This document shows, in pieces, positions 9,835 through 33,587 of a DNA stretch of 64,000 nt. A model generated the notes under the pieces. That model did not search any database and had not been told where the DNA came from. It saw only the letters and a list, made by a program, of their open reading frames with translations. Where the stretch lies: assembly GCA_003009795.1 (NCBI GenBank), contig PXPE01000001.1, positions 756,739-820,738 of the forward strand, written 5' to 3'. Source of the DNA: Nanohaloarchaea archaeon SW_7_43_1. Lineage in GTDB: Archaea; Nanohalarchaeota; Nanosalinia; Nanosalinales; Nanosalinaceae. How positions within the stretch are numbered: position 1 is the first letter of the stretch; each line of letters opens with the position of its first letter. A program made the position numbers and the translations under genes.

Positions 9835-9839
9835 TACTT

Positions 9840-13434: not shown

Positions 13435-13469
13435 GTTTGACCCTTTCGCAGTTACAATCTTGTACAGTT

Positions 13470-14942: not shown

Positions 14943-14995
14943 ATTAGAACCATTCTATGAAGAATTTCATATACTTTGACACCATTGATATCAAG

Positions 14996-15012: not shown

Positions 15013-15173
15013 GTACGGTAAAAGCTTCCCTAAAAAGCTTTGAGAAGATAACTGAAGCAAAAGCTCCCATTATAGATAAGTATCAATGAACCATCTAAAT
15101 TCTCTTTAAATCTTAGACTATAACTTTTTACCACCTCCAGATAACAAAAAGCATTATAAAATTAGCTCTTTGA

Positions 15174-15812: not shown

Positions 15813-15862
15813 TTTATCTCACTGCATAATTATTGATGGTCAATGATTAAAACTTTGATGAG

Positions 15863-16315
15863 TTACTCGATCTCTGAAACTGCTTTCTCAAGAACTTCAG
15901 TATTATTTTTATGGGTAAGAAGTGATCTCGCATCCTCCTGCCTGAAGAAAAAACCTTGTTCATGTTCGTCATGAGGATTGGAGTTGACATCGATAAACGT
16001 ATTCTCGCTCAGCCGGACAATGAATGCTTTGTATTTGCGTTTGATCTCTCTTCCATCATCTTCAAAACTCCATTCAACGGTAGAATCTAGATCCTCTATT
16101 TCCTTGATATGGGCTTCGTCAATTCCTGCCTCCTCGTTCAACTCTAATTTGACAGTCTCTCTGTAATCATCTTTCTCAAGGTGGCCCTTCGGCAGTTCCC
16201 AGCCCTCCCAGTTTTTCTTTCGGTTAAGGACCACAAATCTGGGATTTCTAGAGTTTTTGTAGGCTACGATCATAACGCCTTTTTCAGTTTTCACGTTTCC
16301 AGTTTTTGTTCCCAA
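15863..16315 (-). CDS. Nudix hydrolase
   Basis: The region GHLEKDDYRETVKLELNEEAG is a Nudix box, slightly degenerate: the spacing is one residue short and the usual Arg-Glu is Leu-Glu. The domain starts with KGVMIVAYKNSRNPRFVVLNR and keeps GWELPKGH. It resembles Ap4A-type or other nucleotide diphosphate hydrolases. The substrate is unknown. It is divergent from the GTPase operon at 16418. Confidence 0.85.
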   Translation of the reverse strand: MGTKTGNVKTEKGVMIVAYKNSRNPRFVVLNRKKNWEGWELPKGHLEKDDYRETVKLELNEEAGIDEAHIKEIEDLDSTVEWSFEDDGREIKRKYKAFIVRLSENTFIDVNSNPHDEHEQGFFFRQEDARSLLTHKNNTEVLEKAVSEIE

Positions 16316-16417
16316 CTTTAATTAAAAAGTATCAGCATATCGGAGAGTCTTATGCCTCAGAGTAAAGGAAATAGTTTTTATACCTACGGAACGGATTTAT
16401 TATTAACTGGTGTCAAC

Positions 16418-17047
16418 ATGATAAAGCGTTTGAAGGAACTTTTCAGCAATTTATTCACTGATTCGGGAAAAGATGATATCGGGATAGGTATTTACGGGCC
16501 GCCAAACGCTGGTAAGTCAACCCTTGCTAACCAGATTTCTAAGGATCTAACAGGGGATGACATGAGCGATGTTTCCGAAGTGCCTCACGAAACTAGAGCA
16601 GTTGAGAAAAAGGAAAAAGTTGCTATAGAAGCCGATGATGGAAGATCTCTCGAAATCAATCTACTAGATATGCCAGGCATCTCAACAAATGTCGACTTCA
16701 AAGATTTCACAGAACACGGCCTAGAGGAAGAGGACGCTAAAGGACGCGCCAAGGAAGCGACAAAGGGAATTGTAGAAGCCATTAAATATTTGGACGACGT
16801 AGATGCATGTCTGGTGATCTTCGACTCAACAGAGGACCCTTACACGCAGGTAAACGTTACAATTATCGGGAACCTTGAAGCCAAGGACATACCAATTCTA
16901 GTTCTCGCCAACAAGGTCGATCTAGAGGGCGCAGAACCAGAAAGAGTTAGAGATGCATTCCCTCAACACCCTGTACTGGAGATTTCCGCTAAAGACGGCA
17001 CAAATATCGACAAACTTTATGAGGAAATAATAGAAAGGTTAAGTTAG
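16418..17047 (+). CDS. oapA: Era-like GTPase, OapA-type
   Basis: A small G domain with G1 GPPNAGKST, G3 DMPGIS and G4 NKVDL, preceded by a basic amphipathic helix. This matches the Era-like GTP-binding protein of haloarchaea called OapA, found beside the OapB (DUF2073) and OapC (zinc ribbon) genes. I start at the ATG at 16418 (MIKRLKELFSNLF) as in relatives. An ATG at 16352 would add 22 residues. The stop is followed directly by the ATG of the next gene. Oap names come from association with haloarchaeal replication origins. The biochemical role is unclear. Confidence 0.8.
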   Translation: MIKRLKELFSNLFTDSGKDDIGIGIYGPPNAGKSTLANQISKDLTGDDMSDVSEVPHETRAVEKKEKVAIEADDGRSLEINLLDMPGISTNVDFKDFTEHGLEEEDAKGRAKEATKGIVEAIKYLDDVDACLVIFDSTEDPYTQVNVTIIGNLEAKDIPILVLANKVDLEGAEPERVRDAFPQHPVLEISAKDGTNIDKLYEEIIERLS

Positions 17048-17437
17048 ATGGGAGAAGACGGTGTCACAATCGAGTTTCTGTCGAAAGAGAAGCTTAACAG
17101 CGAAGATTTCGAGAAGAAGCTAGAAATAATACTAGAAAAGGTGAAAGATAACGCTGTCCTAGTTCTAGAAGAATCATGGACTCCCGGGGAAAAAAGGGAA
17201 CTGATCAAGACATCAATGGAAGAGGTAAACGATGATTTTCCCGGTGTCGAGTTCATGGGCCTTAACTCAGAGAGTTCGAAACTGGAGAGAGCCCGGAGCT
17301 TTGTATACGACAAATTCCTGAATGAAGACTATAGAAGAGGAATAACAATTGTAGGTAACTCCCGAGTGATGGAGAAAATCAAGGAAGAAAAAGATACTGT
17401 ATCATTCCTCGCTAAAATGGAAGAGGAAAACTCTTAG
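17048..17437 (+). CDS. oapB: DUF2073 protein, OapB-type
   Basis: The 129-aa protein contains VLVLEESWTPGEKRELIKTSM and GVEFMGLNSESSKLERARSF, recalling DUF2073. Position directly after an Era-like GTPase, with no gap, and before a zinc-ribbon gene supports an OapB assignment. It is soluble and acidic, with no catalytic motif. Function is unknown. Link to origins is by family name and neighbourhood only. Confidence 0.7.
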   Translation: MGEDGVTIEFLSKEKLNSEDFEKKLEIILEKVKDNAVLVLEESWTPGEKRELIKTSMEEVNDDFPGVEFMGLNSESSKLERARSFVYDKFLNEDYRRGITIVGNSRVMEKIKEEKDTVSFLAKMEEENS

Positions 17438-17449
17438 AGGCAGATAATC

Positions 17450-17839
17450 ATGCCACACCGTTGCATGAACTGCGGTAATACCTACGAAGATGACTCTGAA
17501 GAACTAATTGATGGATGTGAATGCGGTTCCTCACTATTCATATACGAAAACGAGCCCGAGGAACAGGAACTATCAGAGGATGAGAAAACAGAGGTTAGAT
17601 CGGACATAGAGGAAATGGTTGAAGAAGGTCTTGAAGAAAGGGAAAACATTAAGTTCAAGTTCGACTTAGATAGTATTGTAGTCGAGGAAGAAGGCGTATA
17701 CAACATAAACGTATCACGTCTATTGAAGGAGGTTCCGCTGGTAATACGCAAGACAGAGGGAGTATACCATGTCCATCTACCATCGGCTTTCACCCCTGAA
17801 AGTAGAGAAATCGACTCATCGGAGCTTGATATAACATGA
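17450..17839 (+). CDS. oapC: Zinc-ribbon protein, OapC-type
   Basis: The N terminus is a zinc ribbon, HRCMNCG and GCECGS, followed by an acidic helical segment and a beta-rich C terminus (SIVVEEEGVYNINVSRLLK, LVIRKTEGVYHVHLPSAF). It is the third gene of the oap-like operon. Its TGA overlaps the ATG of the small membrane protein gene (ATGA at 17836-17839). Confidence 0.7.
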   Translation: MPHRCMNCGNTYEDDSEELIDGCECGSSLFIYENEPEEQELSEDEKTEVRSDIEEMVEEGLEERENIKFKFDLDSIVVEEEGVYNINVSRLLKEVPLVIRKTEGVYHVHLPSAFTPESREIDSSELDIT

Positions 17840-18090
17840 CAGAAGAAGATCGTTTTGGATTATCGAAGATGTCGACAAACCAAGAGGTCGCAGTATCTTT
17901 CACACTCTTCGTACTAGGAACACTTCTAGTACTTTCCGGACTCTACCCACTTTCAGAGATCGCGGATCTGAAACCGGCGTTTCTCGGTGTAGTATTAATG
18001 GGGTCAGGATACCTATTCGCGATTGAATCGATCAGAGAACTTGAGGAAAAGGATCACTTCCTTTCTAGAAAGCTGATGAACAAGGAATGA
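17836..18090 (+). CDS. Small two-helix membrane protein after oapC
   Basis: An 84-aa protein with two hydrophobic helices (VSFTLFVLGTLLVLSGLYPL and AFLGVVLMGSGYLFAIES) and a charged tail. Translational coupling by the ATGA overlap makes it the fourth member of the oap-like operon. I do not recognise the family. Confidence 0.75.
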   Translation: MTEEDRFGLSKMSTNQEVAVSFTLFVLGTLLVLSGLYPLSEIADLKPAFLGVVLMGSGYLFAIESIRELEEKDHFLSRKLMNKE

Positions 18091-18142
18091 AAATCCGTGA
18101 CCACCACTAAAAAATAAAACCTTTTCTCTCTAATGGATTTTC

Positions 18143-18418
18143 ATGGCAAGTGAAGAGGTAGAACTTGATTTTGAATTTTCCAACGAAGAACTCGCAAACT
18201 TTCTGGATAATTTCGCTGACAAACTGAGGGAAGGAGAAGTCGGTCTCAGCTTCAAAGGGCGAGAAGAAGTCCAGATCACACCTAACAAGGATAACAGAGT
18301 TGAACTCGAGTTCAGAGAAGGAGATACTTACAAGAAGCTTTCAGTGGATCTGGAGCTAAGGCAGGAAATGCAGAGTACAGATAAAGGAAGAAGAAAGATT
18401 AACGTGAAAGTGGTTTAA
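18143..18418 (+). CDS. Amphi-Trp-like domain protein
   Basis: The pattern FEFSNEELANFLDNFADKLREG followed by VQITPNKDNRVELEFREG resembles the haloarchaeal amphi-Trp family of small proteins, though the namesake Trp residues are absent. It is 91 aa, acidic and soluble. The function of the family is unknown. Its TAA stop shares TTAA (18415-18418) with the convergent coiled-coil gene. Confidence 0.5.
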   Translation: MASEEVELDFEFSNEELANFLDNFADKLREGEVGLSFKGREEVQITPNKDNRVELEFREGDTYKKLSVDLELRQEMQSTDKGRRKINVKVV

Positions 18419-18786
18419 GAAGCGAAACTTTCCAGGATCTCAATCATCCTTTCATTCTGCTTTATAATCCTATCCAGCTTTGACTCAAGACCGGAAGTAT
18501 CCATAGACTCTGCTCCATAGTTTTTTCTCTTTTTACTAGAAGAACTCTCTGAGTTTTGACTTTCATTCTCACTTTTCTTATTCCTCTTCGGACTTTCCTC
18601 TCTCAGGCCGCCTTCTTCCAGAACCTCTATAGGTGTATCATCTCCTTGTTTTTCATCCTCGTTCTCAGATGATTCTTCAGCCGCTTCCTTCAGTGTATCG
18701 AAAGAAGGCGCTGATCCCGAGGAACCAGAAGAGTTTGACTTGTTTTTGTCCTTGACGTTATCCTTCACATTGTCATAGTAACTCAT
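18415..18786 (-). CDS. Disordered protein with C-terminal coiled coil, paralogue 2
   Basis: The protein starts MSYYDNVKDNVKDKNKSN, is low-complexity (Ser, Glu, Asn and Lys) through the middle, and ends with a short coiled coil LESKLDRIIKQNERMIEILESF. The gene directly upstream ends with a related heptad, so the two are probably paralogues. A start at 18795 adds three residues. The gene overlaps the upstream stop. Confidence 0.6.
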   Translation of the reverse strand: MSYYDNVKDNVKDKNKSNSSGSSGSAPSFDTLKEAAEESSENEDEKQGDDTPIEVLEEGGLREESPKRNKKSENESQNSESSSSKKRKNYGAESMDTSGLESKLDRIIKQNERMIEILESFAS

Positions 18787-19090
18787 CCATTCCACCTCTC
18801 ATACCTGAACTGTCTTTACTCTCCGCTTCTCTAGTAGTATTGTCTTTTCTTGAACCATCATTATCTACGAGCTTCTCAAGTAGATTAATTATTCTCTCAT
18901 TCTGTCTCTCCAAGTCCTTCAACGAGACTTCAGTTCTCCTACTCCTTGATTTTTGAGAATTCGGAGATGCGGAATCTATTTTTGACTCAACCTCGCCTTT
19001 AAGTTTGGAGCTGTTTTCATTTTTTTCATCGGTAACGCCGATACGGACTTCGCCCTTTTTCGACCTAGTATCGTTATCGAATAGACCCAT
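18773..19090 (-). CDS. Disordered protein with coiled coil, paralogue 1
   Basis: A 105-aa protein starting MGLFDNDTRSKKGEVRIGV with a Ser/Lys-rich stretch and a coiled coil DLERQNERIINLLEKL. The heptad pattern QNERIINLLE parallels QNERMIEILE in the next gene. Overlapping stop and start suggest translational coupling. No membrane segment is present. Such short coiled coils often mediate oligomerisation or partner binding. The partner is unknown. Confidence 0.6.
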   Translation of the reverse strand: MGLFDNDTRSKKGEVRIGVTDEKNENSSKLKGEVESKIDSASPNSQKSRSRRTEVSLKDLERQNERIINLLEKLVDNDGSRKDNTTREAESKDSSGMRGGMDELL

Positions 19091-19142
19091 ACAATAGATT
19101 TCTTAAAATCTAAATATAAGACTTTGTGAACAACCAGCCAAT

Positions 19143-19625
19143 ATGAAGGCAGAAATCATTCCAACCGAAAAAATCCAGCAGTTGGAAGAAAACCTGAAGA
19201 AGAGAGTGGAGAGAGCAGAAATAAAGGGTGAAAAGATAGAAGTAGAAGTGGAGGACGAAGAGAAACTAAGCCGGATACCAGGTATTGATTCTTATTGGGT
19301 CGCAGAGGAAAAGTTTGAGGGACTGAAAGGAAGACCGATCGATCAACAGGCATATACTCGATTGGAGAGTAGGAAGGATGCGGTCCGTGCTCTACTTGCG
19401 ACCATCCAAGGATGGAATCTCATAGTTCTGGAGACGGATAGAAAATGGGATCTGAAACAGCTCAGAAAATATAACCCGGATATCAAGAAACTGAAGGCAG
19501 AGAAGCCTAGAGAAGAACTGGGGATAGAGAAAACAGTATCAAGCATTGAAGGGCTCGAAAAAGTTGAGATAGAAATACCTGATGAAGACGAGAGGGAAAT
19601 GATCTATCGAGAAATGCTTACCTAG
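19143..19625 (+). CDS. Hypothetical protein, 160 aa
   Basis: I do not recognise this protein with certainty. It has EVEVEDEEKLSRIPGIDSYWV, then GRPIDQQAYTRLESRKDAVRA and LIVLETDRKWDLKQLRKYNP, suggesting an alpha/beta domain, possibly an RNA-binding fold of THUMP type. No catalytic motif is evident. It is divergent from the coiled-coil pair, with a 52-bp promoter spacer. Confidence 0.55.
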   Translation: MKAEIIPTEKIQQLEENLKKRVERAEIKGEKIEVEVEDEEKLSRIPGIDSYWVAEEKFEGLKGRPIDQQAYTRLESRKDAVRALLATIQGWNLIVLETDRKWDLKQLRKYNPDIKKLKAEKPREELGIEKTVSSIEGLEKVEIEIPDEDEREMIYREMLT

Positions 19626-19688
19626 TTTGGGAATATTTCTCCGAGTTTGCAAACATTTAAACTTTAGTCAGGTCTTAATGAGTATAAG

Positions 19689-19994
19689 ATGAAAAAGATT
19701 GACTATGACCGGGCTGAATACGTCACGAACAGAGAAGTAGAAAACGATGAAGGAGAAAAAACAGGAAGGGTCAAAATGTTTTCATATGATAACGAAGAAT
19801 ATTATTACGAGATGGATTGCCCGTACTGTGACAACGAATGGGACGACAGCCAGGAATTAGGACAAAGGCCTTGGTGGATCGAATGTCCTGAATGTACAAG
19901 AAGCATCAATGTCAACAGAATTAAGGATGCGAAAAAGAAAGAGATCAAAGACAGAGGCACTGATGCAGACCTGGACGATGTTGATGTTACCTGA
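19689..19994 (+). CDS. Zinc-ribbon-like small protein
   Basis: Two cysteine pairs, CPYC and CPEC, about 26 residues apart with Trp residues between, define a zinc ribbon in the middle of this 101-aa acidic protein. The C terminus is charged. The partner or nucleic acid bound is unknown. It stands between the 160-aa gene and a convergent gene with a 4-bp gap. Confidence 0.65.
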   Translation: MKKIDYDRAEYVTNREVENDEGEKTGRVKMFSYDNEEYYYEMDCPYCDNEWDDSQELGQRPWWIECPECTRSINVNRIKDAKKKEIKDRGTDADLDDVDVT

Positions 19995-19998
19995 AAAA

Positions 19999-20637
19999 CT
20001 AGTCCTCTAGGGAATCCAAGTCTAGTCTTTCCATATTAAACTCTATTCTATACTTGTTATCCATATCTCTCAGATCCGAAAAATCTAATATGTCGCTGGA
20101 AGCGATATTTTCCAGAGTTTTCTTTATCTCCAAATCTGAATAAAACTCTCCAGAGTTCACCTCTTCGTCTCTCCAAGGTAAATGATCTTCAATAAAATGA
20201 TCAAGAGCCTCTTCCAAACTATAATCATAGACGTTAACCCAGAGACTATCATCATTACCTAATTCTTTGAAAGCCTCAAAATACGAGTTACCATCCAGAA
20301 CCATATACTCATCTTCCTCCAAGGTTACAGCTGGAGCTCTCTTCTCAGAATCCATCTTCGGAATGTTATTTTCACATAAGTCCGAGGCGTATTCACGACC
20401 GGAGTAAGGAAAAGGGGATATTACATCTACAGAAACGTTTCTCAAGAGAACGGAGTTATCAAGAATATCAATCTCTTCAGGGTTCCAGACCTTAGCACCA
20501 TCAACCGTAACATAACCAAGATCATCATCATAATCCTGCAGCTCTCCATCAACCGTTCCTCCATCATATCCAACAGAAACCTCCTCCACAATAGGATCAT
20601 TCAGCATTCCTCTGATGGTCATACAAGACAGATACAA
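19999..20637 (-). CDS. Hypothetical acidic protein, possibly ParB-like
   Basis: The central part, APAVTLEEDEYMVLDGNSYF followed by EAFKELGNDDSLWVNVYDYS, resembles the ParB/sulfiredoxin-fold pattern in which a stretch such as VLDGxxRxxA is followed by V-x-V. The catalytic-type GERR residues are missing. The protein is 212 aa and strongly acidic. The true start may be at the second ATG (MTIRGMLNDP). Function unknown. Confidence 0.45.
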   Translation of the reverse strand: MYLSCMTIRGMLNDPIVEEVSVGYDGGTVDGELQDYDDDLGYVTVDGAKVWNPEEIDILDNSVLLRNVSVDVISPFPYSGREYASDLCENNIPKMDSEKRAPAVTLEEDEYMVLDGNSYFEAFKELGNDDSLWVNVYDYSLEEALDHFIEDHLPWRDEEVNSGEFYSDLEIKKTLENIASSDILDFSDLRDMDNKYRIEFNMERLDLDSLED

Positions 20638-20707
20638 ACCAAAATATTTAACGGAGAAACAAACTCCAACCTTATTTAACTCTTCACCAACTCTTCAAAA
20701 ATACCAC

Positions 20708-20782
20708 GCCTCGATGGCTCAGTCTGGCTAGAGCGGTCCCCTTGTAAGGGACAGACCGAGGGTTCAAATCCCTCTCGGGGCT
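20708..20782 (+). tRNA. tRNA-Thr (anticodon TGT)
   Basis: Acceptor GCCTCGA pairs with TCGGGGC. The anticodon stem is GTCCC/GGGAC with loop CTTGTAA. The T-arm is GAGGGTTCAAATCCCTC, discriminator T. No intron is present. It stands in a spacer before the giant surface-protein gene. Confidence 0.96.
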
Positions 20783-21025
20783 ATGAACCCTTATTATTTT
20801 GTTATCAGTTTCTTGATGCCAATCTGTTGATATAACTGTTTTAAGGTTCTGCGGGTCAGGTCTCTTGTTTCAGCGTTTACCTGTTTTACACAGTTTTTTT
20901 ACAGTAGTTCTAAAAGTTAATGAAGTAAATTGGTTTTTTACAAGATTTTCTCTAAGAGAGATACCTCACCTTGCTGCTATTAGATTTCCTAAACACTAAA
21001 ATGTATTAAGAACCCTAAACAAAAT

Positions 21026-24000
21026 GTGATCAAGTGGGAGAAAGTGAAGAGTAGAATTTTTTTGCTGTTAATGCTTTTTATTGCTATTTTAGGTGTTTCA
21101 GCTAATGTTTCTGCGGAAACCTTTCTATCAACACCTAGTGAAGTGGGTGTTAGCGATATTGCAGCTATAACAGTTGAGGAAACAGAATTTTCCAGCTTTG
21201 AAGCAGAAATAACTATATTCAATGACAGTTCGCAGCAATACACCAATAAAACATTAGCTGAAGATAATGTTGCTTCTACGACGGTAAAATTTTCTGACAT
21301 AGGTCTTTCTGAGGGAGATTACTCCGTAAATGTTCAAGTGACTAACCAGTCCGAGGGCTTGAAAGACCAGGACTCAACTGAAATTTCTGTCACTTCTGAG
21401 ACTTCAAACGCTGATATGCTGGCTTTGACCTCAAAGGACTTAACCGGTTCTTGTCCTTTGAATTCAAGTGCCGAATTCGTAGTGAACACAGGAGACTCAG
21501 CAACAATAACGGTCAACGGAAACGAACATGAATTCGAAACAAATTATGTCGCGGGCGGCGGAAGCTCAGCGACAATCAAAGTAGACAGAGAAACAGAATC
21601 AGTGGAGGAGGGAGACACAGTCAGAGTCAGCGATCAGGATGTAAGAGTTTCAGACATCATCAGTTTCGGAGGCGGAAAAGGAACAGTCGAATTCTCCCTA
21701 AGGTCGCCGGGATGTAAGCTTATCCAAGTAAATGTAACCGAGGATAATGACTCGAACTTGACGCAGGTATCTAAGTCCGGAAAGCCTCTTACTGCTTCAC
21801 TTGTCGGTGGAAATAAGTATATAGCTTTGGTAGACACAGAGAGAGCCGGAGAGTATGACTCGGTTTTCTGGGATGATGACGACATCTTTAATGAAGAGAA
21901 TGAAACCGGTAGACCTGAAAAAAGATTTCTTGAGCCGGGTGACTCGTTAACAAAGTTTGAAGTAGGAGGTCAACAGGCTAACTTGCGATTCTTGATCTCT
22001 GGGGATAACCTCGTCCTAGCAGTTCCTCCAACATCTGAAGAAGTCCCTTTGAGGGATGGAGAAAATCTGGATTACGCATTTATAGTTCACAGTGAGTACG
22101 ACTCTGGCCTAGGCCTGAATTTAAACGTAGAACCTATCCAAGGGAGGAATATAGAGGCGAAGTCTACGAACCTTAGGACCGACAACGAGAAAGATCTTAC
22201 ACCATCTGATTCAACTACAAACGAATACGGCCTTACTGGAATAGGAACTATCCAAAGCGCAGGTATAGGTCGACATAAAGTAAACATAGGTAATATGTCA
22301 TCTCAGTACTATGAAGTCAGAAACTTCGATATCAATTATGATGTGATGGACGCTTCGACAGGAAATTCCAAAAGAACATTCCAGCCAGGCGATAAAGTAA
22401 GAATAAAAGCTATAGCCGCTGAGGATGGAAATCAAATCGACTTTAATACCATAAATATCCGGGTGATAGATCCATCAGGAGACACCTACAATGAAGAACT
22501 AACATCATCTACATCAACAGAGTTCGAACTGCCTGAAGATATCGCCGGAGGCAAATCTACGGTGACGATCGAAGTTAAGGATACCAACGGAAACGTACAG
22601 AAGGCATCAACGAGTTTCGACGTGAAAAAGTTTAGAACACACACTATAACTCTGAGAAATGAGGAAGGAAGGCCTGTAACAAGTGAGACTCTGGCACCTA
22701 ACTCCACTGGATATCTTTTCGTGGGAGCAGTAAAAATCGGAACCTTTGGAGAGGTCAAAGACATTCTAGGGGCAGAATTTTACGATATTGATAATCCAAA
22801 TACCTCTACTGACGAATGTAAATCCAATGTAGGGGACATAAGAGGAACTATAGACGGACAAGATGCAGTAGAAGTTGTTAATAAGACAAATATAAATAAT
22901 TCGCAGCTCTTCGCGAACGCTGTAATCGATTTACCTAAAAAAATGGACAATCAGTGCATCTTGAAGTATAATATTAGTAGTGAGGTATCAGGATTCTTTA
23001 GTGGTTCTGTAACGGCTGAAAGAGTAGGTACAAACGAGACGCAAAAAGGCCGGGTAACCTTTGGAGTCTCAGAATACAAGATGGAGGGAGAACCTCGCAG
23101 CGCCAACTCAAATGAAAGAAAGTCCGAATTCGGAAAGAATGAGAGAATAGGCATGAGACCAGAAATTCGAGAGATCGGTACCAACGATCAATTTCCTAAC
23201 TCCAATATCACTGATGCATCCATAACAGGGCTTGAGGGCAGAGAAACTAATCCTGTGTCTAATGTGGCTTTCAACAAGTCGGGCAATAACCTAGTAAGTT
23301 TTGAGTCTCCCAACGCTTCCGGAACCTACGAAGCCAAGATACTTGTAGAAATAAATACTTCGGAGGGGGATAAAAAGGCGGTAACCGGTCATGGATTTTT
23401 CAAGGTCAACCTATTCGGTATAGAAACAAAACTTTCTTCCTCGGGCAAAAGATGGGAAGTAACCCCTAATCAAAATCTAAAGATAGATACAGATGTCAAA
23501 AAACCTACAGGAGGAGACAAGCAAGGAGTAGAACTTAACGTTACAGAACTTCGAAACTTTCAGAAAGGGACAAGCTATTTACAAGACATAAACTTCGATC
23601 CGAACACCACAAACGAGAACGGATCCGCACAGTTAACGATACAATCTCCATCTGAAGGCTGGAACGAGGGAAATTACAAAATAGGGATAAAAGGCATAGA
23701 TCCTGAAGGTGACAAGGATACAGGAGACCTCTACTTTAGCGTGGACAAATATGATGCACGAGCGACAAAAATTTTGGACGGTGAAAAATGCCGGTACTAC
23801 TGTAAACCAACTTTAGGAGATAATCTCCAGTTCGATGTGAACGTATCGAATACCTCGAGCGGCGCTCCGCTTAGCTCTTCTATCAGCCTTGACGGATCCA
23901 GTATAAAATTCTATGGAAACAGAAGAACCTACTCCTCAGAAAATATAGATCTCGAAAAACATGCGCAGTTGGACAACGGCAAATTAAATTTATCGACCTC

Positions 24001-26239
24001 TGGACTGGATCCTGGTTCCTATGGAGTGAATATAAGGGTAGAACTGGATAACTCCGATGATTATGTAAACGCGGATTCACGCATAAAGCTGAAAGCATTC
24101 GACTCAAACTTCAGTCGAAAAGAAGTGGAATCAAAGTTCTCAAGACGGAAGTACCATCCAGGAACCAATGTCACATATCAATTCAATGCATCACAAGAAG
24201 CAAATTACACAATCAAGATAGACAGCTTGAGAGGATATAATCGTGAAACAGGACAGAATATTGAGATGAAGCCGAATGTAGAAGAGTCATTCGAAGATAC
24301 AGACGGAGAGATAAACTTAACCATCCCTTCAAACGCTCAAGAAGGAAGATATAGTGGACACGCAGAAATTAGCTCCGGTGGAAAAACACAGTACGAAAAT
24401 TTGAGAATACGAGTGAGTACCTTAGGCGTATCTATCCCACAAAGAAAAGGCCTGAGGTACCAGAGCAAACTGAGAACGGAGTCCGATTCTATATTCGATA
24501 CTGACAAGAACAGTACATGCTCGGATCTACTTGACGATTCAAATCTTACATTTGAAAGCAGTTCTCCAAACAATCCATGTAGAGTTGCAGAGCAAGTGGA
24601 AGTCGACACAGACCAACCCTACAACGTACTATGGCTAAAAAGAGGTTCTGGGTGGGAGAATGCATCCGTTTACATCACACAGAACTCCATTTTCAACCAG
24701 ACAGACGACATAGCCAGCAACCTCAGCAAACATGAAAAGACCTCGGAGTTTGACTCAGGTCTCAGAATGAATATCTCATGGACGAACAAGTACAAGCTAG
24801 TAATCACACCTACTAATGGCTTTAATTCCTTTGAAGGCCCTGTAGTGGTGCAAGATCCAGGGGATTCCCGGTATCAGGTTTCCATGAAAGAAAATAACTA
24901 TGACCTTGAGAAGGATCTTAACGGAGATGGAGATATGCAAGATATCCTGAACACGCTTCTCGTGAAAAACTCAGGAAACTTCGAGCTCAGGTTGAGCCTA
25001 GGCAACAATTTAACAGCCTCAAACAATAGCACTCACGTCCTAGATGAGAAAGAAAAAACAAGCCTTGGTGGAAAAAAGTTTTATTCAGGGATCATTAGGA
25101 ACGGCTCTTACAGCGATTACAAGAGCAACCTGATATTCACTCGACCAGCAGAGTACAGCAATTTGGGAGCAACGGTGGCCGAAGGTCAAAATTACACTTT
25201 CCCCACGATCATAACTTACCCTAACGGAACAGCTGCAGATGGGAAGCAGGTCAACGTCTCCAGAATAATAAGGAGAAGTGACTCAAAAGTATTCGAGTCG
25301 TCAGCGACTGCCCAAACAGATGATAGTGGTATTGCATTTACAGAGACCTCCCTGCCCTCACTTCAGAAAAGAGGAACAGTGAACTTCAGGGTGGTTCCAT
25401 CAACCAAAGTCGACGGCAAGGAGAAGGAACTAGAAAGATTCAGTTCACCTCAGGTGACGGTTAGCAAGTTCAACAAGGAAGAAGAAAACTTCGTCAAACT
25501 TGACATGGGAACTCTAACGAGTTATTCGAATGACACAAAGTCTGAGACGGTAACGAATATAGAGGATTCCGAAGGCATCGAGATAAAAGATTCAGAATAT
25601 AAAAGCAGAGAGTACAGATACGGGAAAGGCACGGAAGATAGAAAGTCTGGATGTTATGGCCTCGATAGGGGTTGGAACGACTGCGAGGATAGTGTATCGT
25701 TGCTGATGTACGGAGAGGATGACGGAGATGAAGAGATGAATGTATCAAACCTGGTAATAGGTGATGAGACATTCGACGATATAGATGAATATGAATTTGG
25801 TGATCGAAATGTAGAGGCGAATCTTTCCGTAGCTGACTTCCAGGCTCCTTATATACGTTTCGGAGGAATTCCATCCAAATTTGCTACATTCAACGAGTCT
25901 AAAAACAGACTCAGCGTCTATGGAAACAGAAATGATCATCCCGAAGACAAGAACGTTGTAATCGCACTTAGATTCACAGAAACCTTCGATAGGACATCAG
26001 CTTTGAATGGAGATTTAATTGTCAATTCAATAACATACAACGGCGAGACATATGATGCTCAAACAGAGTTCAATAAGACCTTAGACAAAAACGGATTAGC
26101 GGTTTTCAAAATCAGCAGATCTGACTTCAAGGGCAATACAAGTTCATGGGAAACCGGTTCAACCATCAGGATAAACGGAGAGGTAGATGGTACATCATAT
26201 CAATCCAACATAGAGATCCAAGAAAGCGGAGGCAACTAA
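21026..26239 (+). CDS. Giant exported surface protein, 1737 aa
   Basis: A GTG start gives a basic N terminus and hydrophobic core (IFLLLMLFIAILGVSANVSA), a Sec signal peptide. The rest is a long beta-rich chain built from Ig-like modules, with recurring endings such as FDVKKF, FKVNLF, FSVDKYD and RVSTLG, many N-x-S/T sites and a few Cys pairs (CRYYC, and the pair within GCYGLDRGWNDC). There is no C-terminal membrane anchor. It is probably an adhesin, S-layer or host-contact fibre. The next gene, overlapping by one base, encodes a membrane-anchored PGF-pre-PGF protein that may hold it on the cell. Confidence 0.85.
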   Translation: MIKWEKVKSRIFLLLMLFIAILGVSANVSAETFLSTPSEVGVSDIAAITVEETEFSSFEAEITIFNDSSQQYTNKTLAEDNVASTTVKFSDIGLSEGDYSVNVQVTNQSEGLKDQDSTEISVTSETSNADMLALTSKDLTGSCPLNSSAEFVVNTGDSATITVNGNEHEFETNYVAGGGSSATIKVDRETESVEEGDTVRVSDQDVRVSDIISFGGGKGTVEFSLRSPGCKLIQVNVTEDNDSNLTQVSKSGKPLTASLVGGNKYIALVDTERAGEYDSVFWDDDDIFNEENETGRPEKRFLEPGDSLTKFEVGGQQANLRFLISGDNLVLAVPPTSEEVPLRDGENLDYAFIVHSEYDSGLGLNLNVEPIQGRNIEAKSTNLRTDNEKDLTPSDSTTNEYGLTGIGTIQSAGIGRHKVNIGNMSSQYYEVRNFDINYDVMDASTGNSKRTFQPGDKVRIKAIAAEDGNQIDFNTINIRVIDPSGDTYNEELTSSTSTEFELPEDIAGGKSTVTIEVKDTNGNVQKASTSFDVKKFRTHTITLRNEEGRPVTSETLAPNSTGYLFVGAVKIGTFGEVKDILGAEFYDIDNPNTSTDECKSNVGDIRGTIDGQDAVEVVNKTNINNSQLFANAVIDLPKKMDNQCILKYNISSEVSGFFSGSVTAERVGTNETQKGRVTFGVSEYKMEGEPRSANSNERKSEFGKNERIGMRPEIREIGTNDQFPNSNITDASITGLEGRETNPVSNVAFNKSGNNLVSFESPNASGTYEAKILVEINTSEGDKKAVTGHGFFKVNLFGIETKLSSSGKRWEVTPNQNLKIDTDVKKPTGGDKQGVELNVTELRNFQKGTSYLQDINFDPNTTNENGSAQLTIQSPSEGWNEGNYKIGIKGIDPEGDKDTGDLYFSVDKYDARATKILDGEKCRYYCKPTLGDNLQFDVNVSNTSSGAPLSSSISLDGSSIKFYGNRRTYSSENIDLEKHAQLDNGKLNLSTSGLDPGSYGVNIRVELDNSDDYVNADSRIKLKAFDSNFSRKEVESKFSRRKYHPGTNVTYQFNASQEANYTIKIDSLRGYNRETGQNIEMKPNVEESFEDTDGEINLTIPSNAQEGRYSGHAEISSGGKTQYENLRIRVSTLGVSIPQRKGLRYQSKLRTESDSIFDTDKNSTCSDLLDDSNLTFESSSPNNPCRVAEQVEVDTDQPYNVLWLKRGSGWENASVYITQNSIFNQTDDIASNLSKHEKTSEFDSGLRMNISWTNKYKLVITPTNGFNSFEGPVVVQDPGDSRYQVSMKENNYDLEKDLNGDGDMQDILNTLLVKNSGNFELRLSLGNNLTASNNSTHVLDEKEKTSLGGKKFYSGIIRNGSYSDYKSNLIFTRPAEYSNLGATVAEGQNYTFPTIITYPNGTAADGKQVNVSRIIRRSDSKVFESSATAQTDDSGIAFTETSLPSLQKRGTVNFRVVPSTKVDGKEKELERFSSPQVTVSKFNKEEENFVKLDMGTLTSYSNDTKSETVTNIEDSEGIEIKDSEYKSREYRYGKGTEDRKSGCYGLDRGWNDCEDSVSLLMYGEDDGDEEMNVSNLVIGDETFDDIDEYEFGDRNVEANLSVADFQAPYIRFGGIPSKFATFNESKNRLSVYGNRNDHPEDKNVVIALRFTETFDRTSALNGDLIVNSITYNGETYDAQTEFNKTLDKNGLAVFKISRSDFKGNTSSWETGSTIRINGEVDGTSYQSNIEIQESGGN

Positions 26240-27936
26240 TGATGAAGAAAACCGTATTTGCCTTAACCCTCCTATCATGTTTGTCTCTAGGTACGGCGCA
26301 GAATGCCGCTATCGAGAACGTAAATCCCAGCTCCCAAAGCGTGACAGTGGGCCAGAGCACCACTGTAAACGTAGCCTACTCGACCAGCAGTGTTAACTCC
26401 TGTACTCTAGGAGTAGTTGATTCATCCCTAGCATCCAACTGGGGATCGGACAGCGACATTACAGTGACCACCACAGGAGGCAGCACATCAACAGCCACAA
26501 GTCCTCAGATCTCAACAGCAGCGCCCGCCACTGAAACAGAAGTAACCGTAGAACTCGAATGCAGTGCAAGCACAGGCCAAGATCCTAGAGACACATCGAC
26601 ATTCAACCTGAAGGCAAGAAATCCTCCTTTCCTAGAAGGAACTTTAGAGTCGACAGAATCGATAGATGTAAACGCCGATCAAACATACGATATAGAGTTC
26701 TCCATATCTAACTCTGGTTCTTCACAGACTGAATCAGCAAAAGCCGTGATAAATACGCCAAACGGTTATTCAACACCTTCCTCCCTTAACCTAAAGGAAG
26801 CAAGCCAAGATGATGGAGTTATAAGAGCTGGTAAGTCAACTGGTGCATCAAGCTTTAAACTAGATCCTTCTGATGACTTCCAGGAAGGCACCTTAGAGAT
26901 AGAACTCACCAGTGCCGAGATAGGTACTACAGATACGATTCAAGTGGAGCTAAACAATCCTAATAATGACAACGAAGACGATAATGACGGTAACAATGAT
27001 GATAACGAAGGAAATAGTGATCCGGGGGGAGGCTCTAGAGGTGAATTTGTAGCACAGCCTTCTAAAACCCAGAAGATGATTGAAACCGCAAACATACAGA
27101 ACGGTAGAGCTGAAGCGACTATATCCACAAGTTCAGGCAGAGAAGTAGAAGTCAAGATACCTGAACAGGCAGAGACCAAAGTCCAGAAAATAGGATTGAC
27201 GTCCGGTAAGTCCTCTAATATAACCGTGAAGGTAAGAAAAATCGCGGCAGACGAGGTTCAAGGTATCAGCAGAGAACCAGATGGTAAGATCTATGAGTAT
27301 CAGGAGATAAACGTTTCCGGAGCATCCGACGAAGATATCTCAAACGCATCAATCACTTACAAAGTGGAGAAATCATTTTTCCAACAGAATAACCTTTCTC
27401 CATCTGATATGAGATTAGAGAGATATGAAGATGGATGGCAGAAATACTCTGTTGAAGAGATCAGTGAAACATCAGTAGCTCGCATATTCAAATCCGAGGT
27501 ACCAGGATTCTCCTACTACGCTATATCCTTCGAACAGAGCCAATCCCAGGATCAAAAACAGGATAATCAAGACCAACAACAAACACAGCAGGAAAATAAA
27601 GAGAACCAAGAAGATAGCTCCTATCAAATTCAAGATTATCTAGCTGTAGGTATACTACTGATCGGCATCCTATCCTTGTTGGGACTAGCGTTCCTCCAAA
27701 GGAAGAAAATAAGTTCGATGTTGCATCTGGGCAATGAGAGTAAACTGGAGGTTAAGATAGAGGAACTGAAGGAAGAGATCAAGGCTAAGAATCTATCTCA
27801 AGAGGAAAAGGAGATTGTACTGAGGAACATGGAACGGGCAGAGAACCTTGTTGAAGAAGGAAGAACAGATGATGCAAAAGAAGTTATCGAAAACCTAGAG
27901 GAAAATTTAGGTTTTTTAGGACCTCATAATAACTGA
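26239..27936 (+). CDS. PGF-pre-PGF domain membrane protein
   Basis: The ATG overlaps the upstream stop (TAATG). A signal peptide (MMKKTVFALTLLSCLSLGTAQ) leads into Ser/Thr-rich beta domains, an Asn/Asp/Gly linker near residues 235-260, then a PGF-pre-PGF domain with KSEVPGFSYYAISFEQ. A Gln-rich linker precedes one transmembrane helix (DYLAVGILLIGILSLLGLAF) and a cytoplasmic coiled coil of about 90 residues. It should display a large domain outside and link to the cell interior. Co-transcription with the 1737-aa gene suggests a shared surface structure. Confidence 0.85.
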   Translation: MMKKTVFALTLLSCLSLGTAQNAAIENVNPSSQSVTVGQSTTVNVAYSTSSVNSCTLGVVDSSLASNWGSDSDITVTTTGGSTSTATSPQISTAAPATETEVTVELECSASTGQDPRDTSTFNLKARNPPFLEGTLESTESIDVNADQTYDIEFSISNSGSSQTESAKAVINTPNGYSTPSSLNLKEASQDDGVIRAGKSTGASSFKLDPSDDFQEGTLEIELTSAEIGTTDTIQVELNNPNNDNEDDNDGNNDDNEGNSDPGGGSRGEFVAQPSKTQKMIETANIQNGRAEATISTSSGREVEVKIPEQAETKVQKIGLTSGKSSNITVKVRKIAADEVQGISREPDGKIYEYQEINVSGASDEDISNASITYKVEKSFFQQNNLSPSDMRLERYEDGWQKYSVEEISETSVARIFKSEVPGFSYYAISFEQSQSQDQKQDNQDQQQTQQENKENQEDSSYQIQDYLAVGILLIGILSLLGLAFLQRKKISSMLHLGNESKLEVKIEELKEEIKAKNLSQEEKEIVLRNMERAENLVEEGRTDDAKEVIENLEENLGFLGPHNN

Positions 27937-28182
27937 AATATTACCATACTCATCAGTTATTTCCTTTCCACGTTTCCTGAGAAAATGTAATCTGGTTATC
28001 TCTCTAGCAATCTGTAAAAAATTTCTAGAAAAAGCAGTCCAATACAAAGGGAGATAAGTTAACTATCCAGCCTTTGGTTAAATTCTTAACCATATGATCA
28101 AGAGGTTGACCAGTAATGAAAGAAGAATACTAGATAGATAAGTTAACCTCTACTTCTTATTCAAACGAGATCATGGTTTCTA
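27937..28182. repeat. Spacer with 12-bp direct repeat and palindrome
   Basis: AGATAAGTTAAC occurs at 28052-28063 and again at 28136-28147. Between them is the palindrome GGTTAA-N4-TTAACC (28076-28091). No gene is seen. The segment lies between two convergent genes, so it is not an ordinary promoter. It could hold a bidirectional terminator, a small RNA or a protein-binding site. Confidence 0.4.
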
Positions 28183-28923
28183 TTATCTGGATTTCGGGGT
28201 CATCTCGTTAACTACAGCGGTCATGTAATTGTCTGGATTGAATATTCTGATGGCTGAAGCGCCGAGCATTTCGGAGATATGTTCAGCTGGGAAGATGACA
28301 ATGACCATCTTATTTTCTGAGTTTCGATAGTAGCCGACTTCTGCATCTTGTAGAAACTGTAGATTTGAAAGTACCGGAAAGTTTCTCTTTGTTGCGTCAA
28401 ACCTGTTTTCAACCTTGTATACATCGCAGGTAAAGTCAATTGTGTTTTTACCTCTTCCAACTAACTGGAAGTTTTCACAAAAGTAGCTGTCTGTTTTAAG
28501 AGGTACGAAGCACTTTGCTATCATCCTAGCTATTTCAGTTTCAGGTTCTTCAATTTCCCTTAATTCTTCCAGAGAATAACTGTCGAAAAGAGGTTCTACG
28601 AATTCATAAAATTTCTTTCCTTTCGGAGTAAGCAAATAATTTTTACTGTCTAGGGAATTACAGTATACAATATCTTCATCTTCCAAGTGATCAAGATAGC
28701 CTTGAATAGTCCCCACAGTGGTTTCAGTGTTTCTTTCTAGATATTCAATACTCCTTGGCTCGTTGATCTTCTTTCCTAATACATACATAACCTCAGCAAT
28801 CTTCAGAAACCTGTTCTGAGGATTTCGACCTAGAGGAGAACCTCTAAGAGCTTCATAATTCTCATAATAATCGCTTTCTGAACTATTTTCCAGGCTCTTT
28901 TTCCTAGATGTACCAGTTAGCAT
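28183..28923 (-). CDS. Winged-helix transcriptional regulator with C-terminal effector domain
   Basis: Residues about 35-110 form a winged helix (FLKIAEVMYVLGKKINEPRS, TTVGTIQGYLDHLEDEDIVY, YLLTPKGKKFYEF). The C-terminal half resembles a ligand or dimerisation domain with Cys138 and Cys148. The protein is 246 aa. An inverted repeat TGTTAC-N9-GTAACA lies within 28 bp of the start beside a TATA-like tttaaat, suggesting autoregulation. No target besides itself is evident. Confidence 0.75.
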   Translation of the reverse strand: MLTGTSRKKSLENSSESDYYENYEALRGSPLGRNPQNRFLKIAEVMYVLGKKINEPRSIEYLERNTETTVGTIQGYLDHLEDEDIVYCNSLDSKNYLLTPKGKKFYEFVEPLFDSYSLEELREIEEPETEIARMIAKCFVPLKTDSYFCENFQLVGRGKNTIDFTCDVYKVENRFDATKRNFPVLSNLQFLQDAEVGYYRNSENKMVIVIFPAEHISEMLGASAIRIFNPDNYMTAVVNEMTPKSR

Positions 28924-28927
28924 ATGT

Positions 28928-28948
28928 TGTTACATATAGAAAGTAACA
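28928..28948 (-). promoter_or_regulatory. Inverted-repeat operator before the winged-helix gene
   Basis: TGTTAC (28928-28933) and GTAACA (28943-28948) form a perfect 6-bp inverted repeat with a 9-bp spacer, sitting just upstream of the start codon and downstream of a TATA-like tttaaat (28949-28955). A protein bound here would block transcription start. The likeliest binder is the winged-helix protein itself. Confidence 0.5.
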
Positions 28949-29048
28949 TTTAAATATTAGTTGGTAGTGTTTTCATTCCAGAGGTTTCTAGAATTTTTGC
29001 TCAGATGTGGCCAGGGTACTTTTGATAGTCAATCAATAGTAATTTTTT

Positions 29049-29159
29049 GTGAGCTTCGATCCTGGCCCAAGCACATTCAAGCAGATAGGAATTATACTTG
29101 GAGCTACGGCTATGCTTTTAATCTTTCTGTACAGAAGTCTTAGAGAAAAATGGGAATGA
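29049..29159 (+). CDS. Tiny membrane protein, 36 aa
   Basis: A GTG frame encodes MSFDPGPSTFKQ followed by a hydrophobic helix IGIILGATAMLLIFLY and a basic/acidic end RSLREKWE. The composition is strongly protein-like and its topology is that of a single-pass microprotein. It lies alone between two genes on the opposite strand. A different frame at 28961-29143 is less convincing. Confidence 0.45.
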   Translation: MSFDPGPSTFKQIGIILGATAMLLIFLYRSLREKWE

Positions 29160-29166
29160 AGAAGTA

Positions 29167-29433
29167 TTAATCCTCTCTGGCTTTCTTCTCTTTTTCGAAC
29201 ATTTCCGGAAGATTCTCAACTATGTGATTGACTGCTTTCTCGTCTTTTGGGACTGTAAACCTTTTTTTGTACTTCGGTTCTTCATCTTGATAGTATCCTG
29301 TGGCGATCTGGAGAAAACTGTTCTCTGATCCATCATCTTGTACTGCCTTGTTTCTTGATACCTCTACAAACTTCTCCCCAGGAAAGTTTCCATAGTCACG
29401 TCTTTGTTTCTCGATTGTCTCGAACTCTACCAT
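29167..29433 (-). CDS. Hypothetical protein, 88 aa
   Basis: I do not recognise this protein with certainty. It has KFVEVSRNKAVQDDGSENSF, then YKKRFTVPKDEKAVNHIVEN, a short beta sheet and helix that recalls PC4/YdbC-type single-strand nucleic-acid binders. It stands alone and is divergent from the DUF502 gene. Confidence 0.55.
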   Translation of the reverse strand: MVEFETIEKQRRDYGNFPGEKFVEVSRNKAVQDDGSENSFLQIATGYYQDEEPKYKKRFTVPKDEKAVNHIVENLPEMFEKEKKARED

Positions 29434-29520
29434 AGTTTATTCTTTGACATCATGATTTTTGTACTGAATGGTTAGGCAGAGATTATTTAATTTTGACTGA
29501 AATTAGATTTATTCAGGTTA

Positions 29521-30315
29521 ATGGCTGAAGATGATTCTCCCAAGGTTGAAAGAGGAAAAGATAGGATGGAGAGAGGGAGGAAGGAGTTAGAGAAACAGTT
29601 AGGTGCTCGAAAGGAACTGGTTGACGGTTATACAGAGTACTATAGAAATAACCGGAACGAAATTGTGGAGGATTTTCTAGGCAACTTTGACAAGACCAAG
29701 AAGCCGGCTATAGCGGGTATAATCGTCCTCACACCGATACTTATCACACTCTTCATAATTGACTGGACTCTAGATAAGATAAACCAGATACCCTATATAG
29801 AGTTCTTGAACCTGACAGATAAGGTAATAATAAACGAATCCATTAAGCTTGTATTCATAATAAGCCTCGGGGCTTTCCTTGCCACCAGTATAGGCAGAAC
29901 CGTCCAGACAAAGAAGGGTTTCAAAGCTGAGAGACTGATGGATCGATTTGTGGATAAAATACCTTTCCTTGGAACGATCTACAGCATCGCCAAGGTTACA
30001 GCTGACACGGTTTTCAATGGGGCAGATGAGTTCAGCGACCCGGTAAAACTGGAGGTACATGGAATGAAGGTTACCGGCTACAGAACAGGGAACACCTTGG
30101 ATGGAAAAGAAATCATCTTCGTACCCACATCCCCCAATGTCACTACAGGATTTGTAGTAGAGATAGATCCGGAGGAAGTAATTGAGACTGAAGATACACC
30201 GAGAGAGGCTTTTACACGGACATTGAGCGCAGGGTTCGGTGAGGCCGGTCCGCAGAAACCGAAAAGAAGTCCTGTGAAAGACGGTAATAAGAAAGGAGAT
30301 GAACGGGATAACTGA
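29521..30315 (+). CDS. DUF502 membrane protein
   Basis: After a charged N-terminal helix come two membrane segments (AIAGIIVLTPILITLFIID and SIKLVFIISLGAFLATSIG), then the DUF502 soluble region with IPFLGTIYSIAKVTADTVF and FVPTSPNVTTGFVVEIDPEEV. The family is widespread in haloarchaea and bacteria and has no settled function. It overlaps the start of the HhH gene by 17 bp. Confidence 0.88.
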   Translation: MAEDDSPKVERGKDRMERGRKELEKQLGARKELVDGYTEYYRNNRNEIVEDFLGNFDKTKKPAIAGIIVLTPILITLFIIDWTLDKINQIPYIEFLNLTDKVIINESIKLVFIISLGAFLATSIGRTVQTKKGFKAERLMDRFVDKIPFLGTIYSIAKVTADTVFNGADEFSDPVKLEVHGMKVTGYRTGNTLDGKEIIFVPTSPNVTTGFVVEIDPEEVIETEDTPREAFTRTLSAGFGEAGPQKPKRSPVKDGNKKGDERDN

Positions 30316-30835
30316 AGAGTTTGTCAGGAAGAACCTCGAGCACTACTCCGAAACCCAGGGAGTTTTACCAGAGAAACTGGATAAGTTCGGGAAAAAGTAT
30401 CGGGAACAGAGATATCTCACTCAAGAACAGCTATACAGTATAGCGTATGAGTCCTCGACCCGGAGCGCACATCATGTTAACGAGAATGCCGGTAAGAGAT
30501 GCAGAGAGGTAACAGAAAATGTGCTGAAAGCTAAGGGAGACTTCTCAAAAATATCACTTATATGCAGTTTGAAAGGATTCAAGGCACCGACCGCATCTTG
30601 TGTCTTGACAGCTCTAAACCCTGACAAACATGCAGTGGTTGATACCCGTGTCTGGGCATCACTGGAAAGAAAAGGTTACTTTGATGAAAGAAAGGAAAGC
30701 TTCGGGCCGGAAGATTATGTCAAAATGATAAAACCGATTAGAAATCTATCAGAGAAAACAGGTTTCTCAACTGCCCAAATCGGATATGCTTTGTTTGCCT
30801 ACGACTACAGGGTTAGAGAAGGAACGCTTCACTAG
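30299..30835 (+). CDS. HhH-superfamily DNA glycosylase-like protein
   Basis: The central region ICSLKGFKAPTASCVLTALN followed by VVDTRVWASL matches the helix-hairpin-helix plus Asp arrangement of base-excision glycosylases, with Asp in VVDTRVW at the catalytic position. No Fe-S cluster cysteines are seen. The protein is 178 aa, short for a full glycosylase. The substrate is unknown. The stop is within CTAG shared with the convergent NDH-2-like gene. Confidence 0.7.
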   Translation: MNGITEEFVRKNLEHYSETQGVLPEKLDKFGKKYREQRYLTQEQLYSIAYESSTRSAHHVNENAGKRCREVTENVLKAKGDFSKISLICSLKGFKAPTASCVLTALNPDKHAVVDTRVWASLERKGYFDERKESFGPEDYVKMIKPIRNLSEKTGFSTAQIGYALFAYDYRVREGTLH

Positions 30836-31884
30836 AACCGGAGTCTTAGTCTCTTCCATTTTAATTTACTCCAGTACTTCCATCGGATAGCTTTCTTCAT
30901 GTGACGTAATAAACTGTTCTTATACGATTTATCGCCATACTCAAGAATAGCCGTATCACCCATCTTCATAAGTAACATTCTTGCGCCTTCCTCAAACTCC
31001 TTCAAAGACTTATTGTCTGCTCTGCCTATATTCTCCGCAATAGTTTCAGCCTGACCGATCGCATTGTACGCCGTGACCTCACAGCCGGCATCGGCACATG
31101 ATCCGAGAGCAAATACATTGCTGTACTCGTGGCTGTTCAACCCGCTGTTGACCTCAATACCGGATCTTCCGCAGTTAAAGTCCCGCTGCACAAGTTCAGA
31201 TGACTGCATTCCTGCAAGCCAGACAACCATTTCTGCCTCAATCCTTTCTCCGTTCTCCAGTACGATTCCATCTTCATTTACTTCTTCAACTGCTTGGCCG
31301 CCTCTGAATGAAATATCTCTCGAGTTTAGGGATTCAAGTACTTTCTCAGATACCTCTTTACTGGAACGCGGCATCGGCCCTGTAGATCGGTCGACTAAAG
31401 TAACTTCTATCCCTCTTTCACGTAGTTCACATGCAACCTCCACCCCGACATATCCGGAACCGACAATTAAAGCAGACTCAGCTTCTTCGGCTTCACGGTC
31501 AACCTTTTTTGCTCCTTCCAAAGTATATACCTCTAACGCATCTGAGATATCAATACCAAAGCTTGCGATATCATATCCAAGAGATACAACAAGATTATCA
31601 TAGCTATGTGCTCCACTTGTTGTCTCAACAACTTCTTCATCAGGGTCAATTCCAACGATTTTCTCCCGGGAAAATTCTACTGATGTATCGGAGAAAAAAT
31701 CATTTAGGTTCATAGAGATATCCTCCGCCTCCATACTGCCACGGGCGATATAGATAAGTGCCGGGGTGAAGAGATGGTAACCGTCTTTGTCTATCAGTTC
31801 TACATCATATCCTCTTTGCGCTAGTTCCAGTGCGGAATGAACGCCACCGAATCCAGCGCCGGCCACAACAACTTTCTCGCTCAT
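30832..31884 (-). CDS. NDH-2-like FAD/NAD(P) oxidoreductase
   Basis: Two dinucleotide-binding motifs are clear: GAGFGGVHSA for FAD at the N terminus and GSGYVGVEVA for NAD(P) near residue 140. The C-terminal FALGSCAD motif contacts FAD. Length and layout fit type II NADH dehydrogenases or sulfide:quinone reductase relatives. The C-terminal tail is basic and Trp-rich (KYWSKLKWKRLRLRF), suited to membrane attachment. Catalytic cysteines of sulfide:quinone reductase are not evident. Confidence 0.85.
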   Translation of the reverse strand: MSEKVVVAGAGFGGVHSALELAQRGYDVELIDKDGYHLFTPALIYIARGSMEAEDISMNLNDFFSDTSVEFSREKIVGIDPDEEVVETTSGAHSYDNLVVSLGYDIASFGIDISDALEVYTLEGAKKVDREAEEAESALIVGSGYVGVEVACELRERGIEVTLVDRSTGPMPRSSKEVSEKVLESLNSRDISFRGGQAVEEVNEDGIVLENGERIEAEMVVWLAGMQSSELVQRDFNCGRSGIEVNSGLNSHEYSNVFALGSCADAGCEVTAYNAIGQAETIAENIGRADNKSLKEFEEGARMLLMKMGDTAILEYGDKSYKNSLLRHMKKAIRWKYWSKLKWKRLRLRF

Positions 31885-33581: not shown

Positions 33582-33587
33582 GTGTTA

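Follow-up and report, generated by a model that had tools for sequence, protein, structure and literature searches.

How does a small archaeon keep a giant exported protein at its surface when that protein carries no membrane anchor? The question is raised by two adjacent genes, P0001 and P0002, which fill positions 21026-27936, both on the + strand, of the window analysed here (a stretch of 64,000 nucleotides, 756739-820738 of the single 956,550 bp contig that forms the genome of Nanohaloarchaea archaeon SW_7_43_1). The source archaeon is a tiny, salt-loving organism that probably lives on another archaeon. The same family includes Candidatus (Ca.) Nanohalovita haloferacivicina BNXNv (G010, 1,046,959 bp) and Ca. 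Nanohalococcus occultus SVXNc (G009, 948,351 bp). G000 denotes the source genome, other G numbers the related genomes compared, and L numbers loci from these genomes and from wider collections. P0001 and P0002 are probably two halves of one cell-surface assembly, in which the membrane protein P0002 displays P0001 as exported cargo. This is the best reading because the same arrangement recurs with unrelated partners and because the two halves are fused in most other DPANN archaea. Coordinates are given in Table 1.

P0001 was described in a first-pass annotation, made from the sequence letters and their translations, as a secreted Ig-like protein of 1737 amino acids (aa) without an anchor. Secretion and the lack of an anchor are borne out, as the only hydrophobic stretch is that of the signal peptide; the best later 19-residue window reaches 1.03 on the Kyte-Doolittle scale. 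N-glycosylation sequons number 49-50 against 26.7 expected (maximum 42 in 500 shuffles), and P0001 is probably N-glycosylated. Its 10 cysteines are arranged as five local pairs, and C143 and C230 lie inside a domain (residues 124-243) that is related to the S-layer protein of the same genome. The Ig-like label is weakly supported. In a leave-one-out test, only three of the eight putative repeats outscored every one of 200 shuffles, and the sole Ig-type match, Big_13 at 469-533, scores 25.4 bits, below the cut-off of 27. A regular tandem Ig array was rejected, since the leave-one-out test backs only these three segments and a hidden Markov model trained on the protein's own segments is circular. 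The AlphaFold2 single-sequence fold of residues 436-1140 is uninformative, with a predicted local distance difference test (pLDDT) value of 36.

The junction of the two genes reads ...GGAGGCAACTAATGATG, with GGAGG at 26228-26232 and the one-base overlap TAATG, as the first-pass annotation had noted. P0002 matches TIGR04213 (PGF_pre_PGF) over residues 297-430 with 80.9 bits, against a curated cut-off of 28, and has one C-terminal membrane helix. The tail of P0002 is placed inside the cell because QRKK comes directly after this helix. A cytoplasmic coiled coil of 90 residues had been proposed here; the cytoplasmic location stands, while the tail is 79 aa long and is modelled as short helices. 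In the AlphaFold2 model, the membrane helix runs on to residue 516 and is followed by helices at 521-539 and 543-556. The tail resembles that of a fused BNXNv homologue (22.7 bits, in a small comparison set). Anchoring by PGF-CTERM and an archaeosortase was considered and rejected: P0002 ends in the cytoplasmic tail, and the tripartite PGF-CTERM C-terminus has 0 matches in the whole source genome. A gene of the archaeosortase family (exo_archaeo) is nearly universal in the family (18 of 19 genomes), yet PGF-CTERM is not found in the source genome; in G000 this gene is located at C1:825460-825714, just beyond the window.

PGF-pre-PGF genes are found in three forms in the phylum: paired, fused, and alone. 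The paired form, directly behind a large secreted protein, is found twice in G000 and in G006, G008, G017, and G027, and probably in G023 and G024. The fused form, in which the module closes a giant chain, is found in G002, G003, G010, G023, and others, and two solo genes exist in G027. A strict pair was defined by the gene directly upstream, which had to be co-directional and to encode a protein of 500 aa or more that has a signal peptide but lacks membrane helices. Six of 10 standalone PGF-pre-PGF genes, against 1 of 241 background genes, have such a neighbour (Fisher 4e-9), and two further standalone genes lie behind large proteins, which either are truncated or have no called signal peptide. 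The partner proteins are unrelated in kind: Ig/Big_1 arrays, NosD-type beta-helix proteins, and CarboxypepD_reg arrays. One pair type is co-inherited across families (G006 and G027), the partners being 28% identical over 956 columns and the anchors 49% over 197.

A scan of 84,980 genomes with an alignment of four closer anchors yielded 54 relatives, most of which are the C-terminal ends of large fused proteins. The fused relatives sit in Woesearchaeota, Aenigmarchaeota, and other DPANN archaea as chains of 1000-2100 aa, in which the PGF-pre-PGF domain and a membrane helix lie C-terminal to the ectodomain (e.g., L064, L074, L085, and L091). Separate pairs exist as well, among them one in Halorubrum aidingense and, plasmid-borne in the plasmid collection, one in Methanohalobium evestigatum. 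That the halves are fused in some lineages and encoded side by side in others is a classical sign of physical partnership; it speaks for the pair type and does not prove the case of P0001 and P0002. The earlier proposal that a transmembrane partner holds the unanchored giant gains from these comparable pairs and fusions. Its expectation of similar pairs in relatives is answered in part: the arrangement recurs, while the pair is missing from this locus in the closest species and no full-length P0001 homologue was found.

Besides the pair in the window, the source genome has a second one at L028 (C1:256501-276400, positions 6552-10452), in the same place as a G006 pair. It consists of an 821-aa secreted NosD/beta-helix protein and a PGF-pre-PGF membrane protein of 473 aa that carries an S-F-S motif. 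Upstream of it lies the gene for a secreted helical protein of 768 aa, in which a degenerate stretch resembling PGF-pre-PGF was recognised by eye. PGF-pre-PGF anchors can also sit on plasmids, since Haloferax gibbonsii plasmid pHG2 carries one (L115, 2665-6822), a 1385-aa PKD protein with this domain.

Another line of evidence concerns the fold of the P0002 domain. An AlphaFold2 model built with 23 relatives gives residues 281-430 a block-mean pLDDT of 84-98. The best PDB match by Foldseek is the FIIND of NLRP1 (E 5e-4, probability 1.00). The top 18 VIA matches are mostly ankyrin ZU5, NLRP1/CARD8 FIIND, or GAIN domains with Z 6.6-9.9, values that exceed the tool's stated background of 7-8 by a moderate margin at most and were obtained with a predicted model as the query. 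The maximum of 9.9 belongs to an ankyrin ZU5 domain; the GAIN matches are CD97, ADGRB3, ADGRB2, CELSR1, and GPR110, and UNC5b is lower. The PGF-pre-PGF domain is therefore predicted to have the ZU5/FIIND/GAIN autoproteolytic fold, that of a superfamily known for self-cleavage (PMC3482391). Sequence profiles do not detect the relationship: neither the Pfam families listed up to E<=10 nor the PDB sequences include a ZU5, GPS, or FIIND match to P0002. Besides the predicted fold, the likeness to this superfamily of adhesion G protein-coupled receptors (GPCRs), NLRP1, CARD8, and ankyrins lies in the layout of large ectodomain, domain, and membrane, and in an F-S at the cleavage register. No paper in the literature searched, which excluded Liao et al. 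2014 on that superfamily, links PGF-pre-PGF to GAIN or ZU5; two of the papers mention PGF-pre-PGF, neither of them in its title or abstract.

Across 50 DPANN, haloarchaeal, and methanogen relatives, two residues, W400 and S425, do not vary, and S425 lies in the context G-F-S-Y-[FY]-A. The archaeal S-Y-[FY]-A-[IV] resembles the stalk consensus of adhesion GPCRs, TxFAVLM (PMC9046087). The cleavage register was read backwards and ungapped from the ends of the VIA alignments, in which residue-level pairings are not visible. Read this way, S425 corresponds to S969 of rat NLRP1, which is cleaved between F968 and S969, to S912 of ADGRB2 (GPS +1), and to S857 of ADGRB3, where R855 is at the base position. 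F424 corresponds to L566 of GPR110 (T567 is +1), to L677 of UNC5b (equivalent to F296 of CARD8), and to the last residue of the NLRP1 FIIND chain 7crv_C. CARD8 itself falls outside the register by 9 residues (438 to 319 leads to 306, not 297), perhaps owing to a gap. Assuming ungapped alignment ends, S425 would be a Ser nucleophile at the cleavage register of the superfamily.

The catalytic His that is usual in the superfamily is absent. The His at the GPS -2 position of GAIN domains is replaced by Gly in 48 of the 50 relatives, the FIIND position about 27 residues upstream is D398 in P0002, and no His is conserved in the domain core among the 50. Because the His is missing at both known places, and because ADGRB3, with Arg at the base position, does not cleave, a GAIN-like juxtamembrane domain without cleavage competence should be considered no less likely than a self-cutting one. 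A bolder idea, which we regard as rather unlikely, is that PGF-pre-PGF is a prokaryotic branch of the autoproteolytic GAIN/ZU5/FIIND domains, placed between a membrane helix and giant adhesive ectodomains, and that the pair in the window is a split adhesion receptor. P0001 would then be its exchangeable outer part, and a pull on P0001 would act on the domain, which might respond by self-cleavage between F424 and S425 or by strain without cleavage. The outcome might be release of P0001 or a signal through the cytoplasmic helices.

The genomic setting suggests that the cargo may be exchanged at this locus. G018, a sister species and the sole congener compared, is ~91% identical to the source genome in nucleotide sequence. 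Its nucleotide alignment covers 15564-20782 and 28168-31276 at this identity, the flanks being intact on both sides, and nothing aligns in between. The left block ends at the final base of tRNA-Thr. Because the alignment breaks at 20782 and resumes at 28168, the pair was gained or lost precisely at the tRNA-Thr 3' end. The slot in G018 is 1.17 kb long and has an open reading frame (ORF) for a 238-aa one-helix protein that matches no Pfam family. No match to P0001 or P0002 was found across the rest of G018, a genome that is only 77% complete. Integration of a tRNA-targeting element was considered, but while the border fits the tRNA 3' end, no att-like duplicated repeat was found around the slot and no integrase was recognised among its genes. 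Foreign origin by composition was also rejected, the GC content and third-position GC content of both genes being ordinary. The locus may be regarded as a replaceable slot adjoining tRNA-Thr, in which cargo could be exchanged.

Taken together, the favoured assembly would work as follows. P0001 would be exported by Sec and remain outside as variable cargo. P0002, exported behind it and crossing the membrane once, would display P0001 through its own ectodomain, and its GAIN/ZU5-like domain would connect the external load with the membrane helix and the small helical cytoplasmic tail. Several points weigh against this assembly. That P0001 binds P0002 is something we infer from the sequences. P0001 has no detected homologue beyond one S-layer-type domain and no full-length relative, and it lacks the GWN-type C-terminal domain found in several other partners; no common docking element was therefore found, and a docking domain shared by all partners was rejected. 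The S-layer-type domain could by itself retain P0001 in the S-layer. In addition, the three full-length fused family members (L027 in G002, L031 in G003, and L034 in G010; 1481-1571 aa) look like membrane-held subtilase-type proteins whose repeat stalks are long and whose cytoplasmic tails are helical (L027 by Pfam; L031 and L034 by reading). PGF-pre-PGF is therefore not confined to adhesive cargo.

The domain shared with the S-layer protein and the lack of a common docking domain would both fit a P0001 that is held by the S-layer, or simply secreted, with P0002 as an unrelated membrane protein on the same transcript. The recurrence of the arrangement with unrelated partners, far above background, and the existence of both halves as one chain in other archaea make this unlikely. 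P0001 is not the S-layer protein itself, a role that the first-pass annotation had named as one that would refute its proposal. The S_layer_MJ/S_layer_C match (TIGR01564/PF05124, 71.4 and 54.1 bits) lies in a separate 1026-aa gene, and P0001 has no match to either family and only the one ~120-aa domain in common with that protein. A second coat remains to be weighed, in which P0001 would form an outer canopy and P0002 a stalk, covering the cell rather than serving as a specialised contact structure. In Sulfolobales, SlaA is a soluble, glycosylated protein of 1424 aa and SlaB has beta domains and a membrane-bound C-terminus (PMC10903991), the same division of labour between an unanchored glycoprotein and an anchored partner. 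Here, however, the S-layer is encoded by a different gene, the helices of P0002 are cytoplasmic whereas the coiled coil of SlaB is outside, and the absence of the pair from G018 would be odd for a coat. A coat of this kind is quite improbable. Among the solved structures matched by sequence at E<=1 there is no SlaA or SlaB chain.

Contact with a host is a reasonable guess, because haloarchaea serve these cells as hosts for attachment and giant Ig-type surface proteins of nanohaloarchaea have been proposed as the means of binding (PMC10266531). The proteins in question are the SPEARE-type giants of nanohaloarchaea (SVXNc_0300 and BNXNv_0298), which have, like the pair, a large, exported, beta-rich ectodomain and are held at the membrane (PMC10266531). 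They differ in being single chains of ~9,000 aa that end in a VirB4/TraG-like ATPase, which domain-family searches did not find in P0001 or P0002. Variability between strains is also what a recognition factor would be expected to show. On the other hand, no binding domain was recognised in P0001 by such searches, and the paired architecture is not specific to episymbionts because Halorubrum and the Methanohalobium plasmid carry similar pairs. A host-contact fibre specific to episymbiotic life, the view taken in the first-pass annotation, is thus a possibility that we hold tentatively and with some doubt. The exact replacement at the tRNA 3' end, and the order of a large exported protein and then a variable partner, could also point to a variable conflict or recognition module of the VARTIG or polymorphic-system kind, or to a surface swapped to evade viruses. 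VARTIG modules of Thermococcales, compared with the pair by layout, likewise combine a large Ig protein with variable genes behind it, within a hypervariable locus (PMC8416519); they have several genes downstream, and their C-terminal Ig domain is hypervariable. Since the slot proteins have no toxin, immunity, or nuclease domain in domain-family searches and P0001 has no match in plasmids, phages, or viral contigs, this reading is quite improbable. Of the known systems, the TIGR04213 proteins of archaea share with P0002 a juxtamembrane PGF-pre-PGF domain ahead of a C-terminal helix; P0002 differs in having its cargo ectodomain in a separate gene, a helical domain as its tail, and no PGF-CTERM in its genome.

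The link to the GAIN/ZU5/FIIND fold is of more interest than the pair itself and can be tested directly. If true, an uncharacterised domain that anchors surface giants across DPANN, haloarchaea, and methanogens would be a relative of the domains that cut themselves and sense force in animal adhesion GPCRs and inflammasome proteins, and the layout of adhesion receptors would reach back into archaea. It would also help in understanding how reduced episymbionts present and exchange large proteins on their surface. For annotators, the pattern of pairs and fusions indicates that giants without an anchor, encoded upstream of PGF-pre-PGF genes, are probably bound to the cell even if no cleavage occurs.

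Table 1. Features of the P0001-P0002 locus (positions in the window)
Feature	Position	Strand	Basis and remarks
tRNA-Thr (TGT)	20708..20782	+	ARAGORN; variable slot begins exactly after its 3' end
Variable slot, 7.4 kb with the pair	20783..28167		unrelated 1.17 kb instead in sister species G018
P0001, exported, sequon-rich, no anchor	21026..26239	+	1737 aa, GTG start
P0001 signal peptide, residues 1-30	21026..21115	+	hydropathy (hydrophobic 11-29); putative cleavage after VSA, by inspection
P0001 domain in common with own S-layer protein, 124-243	21395..21754	+	blastp 39%, 2e-14
Coupled junction, GGAGG Shine-Dalgarno-like site and TAATG one-base overlap	26228..26243	+	sequence
P0002, membrane protein of 565 aa, putative P0001 anchor	26239..27936	+	profile match and hydropathy
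PGF-pre-PGF domain, P0002 271-432	27049..27534	+	TIGR04213; AlphaFold2; Foldseek/VIA; predicted ZU5/FIIND/GAIN-like fold
F424-S425 of P0002	27508..27513	+	predicted position of the NLRP1/GAIN self-cleavage bond; Ser in 50/50 relatives
Transmembrane helix of P0002, 468-486	27640..27696	+	positive residues on the inside
Cytoplasmic helical tail of P0002, 487-565, 79 residues	27697..27933	+	hydropathy; AlphaFold2

Elsewhere in the window, a second stretch missing from G018 is found at 11123-15563. It includes a DUF5615/PIN-like protein gene adjoining a small DUF433-like ORF (the latter called by inspection), which together are toxin-antitoxin-like, and a photolyase-like gene, also recognised by inspection. 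A RelE/ParE-like and ribbon-helix-helix-like gene pair at 33276-33818, identified by inspection, is probably a toxin-antitoxin module.

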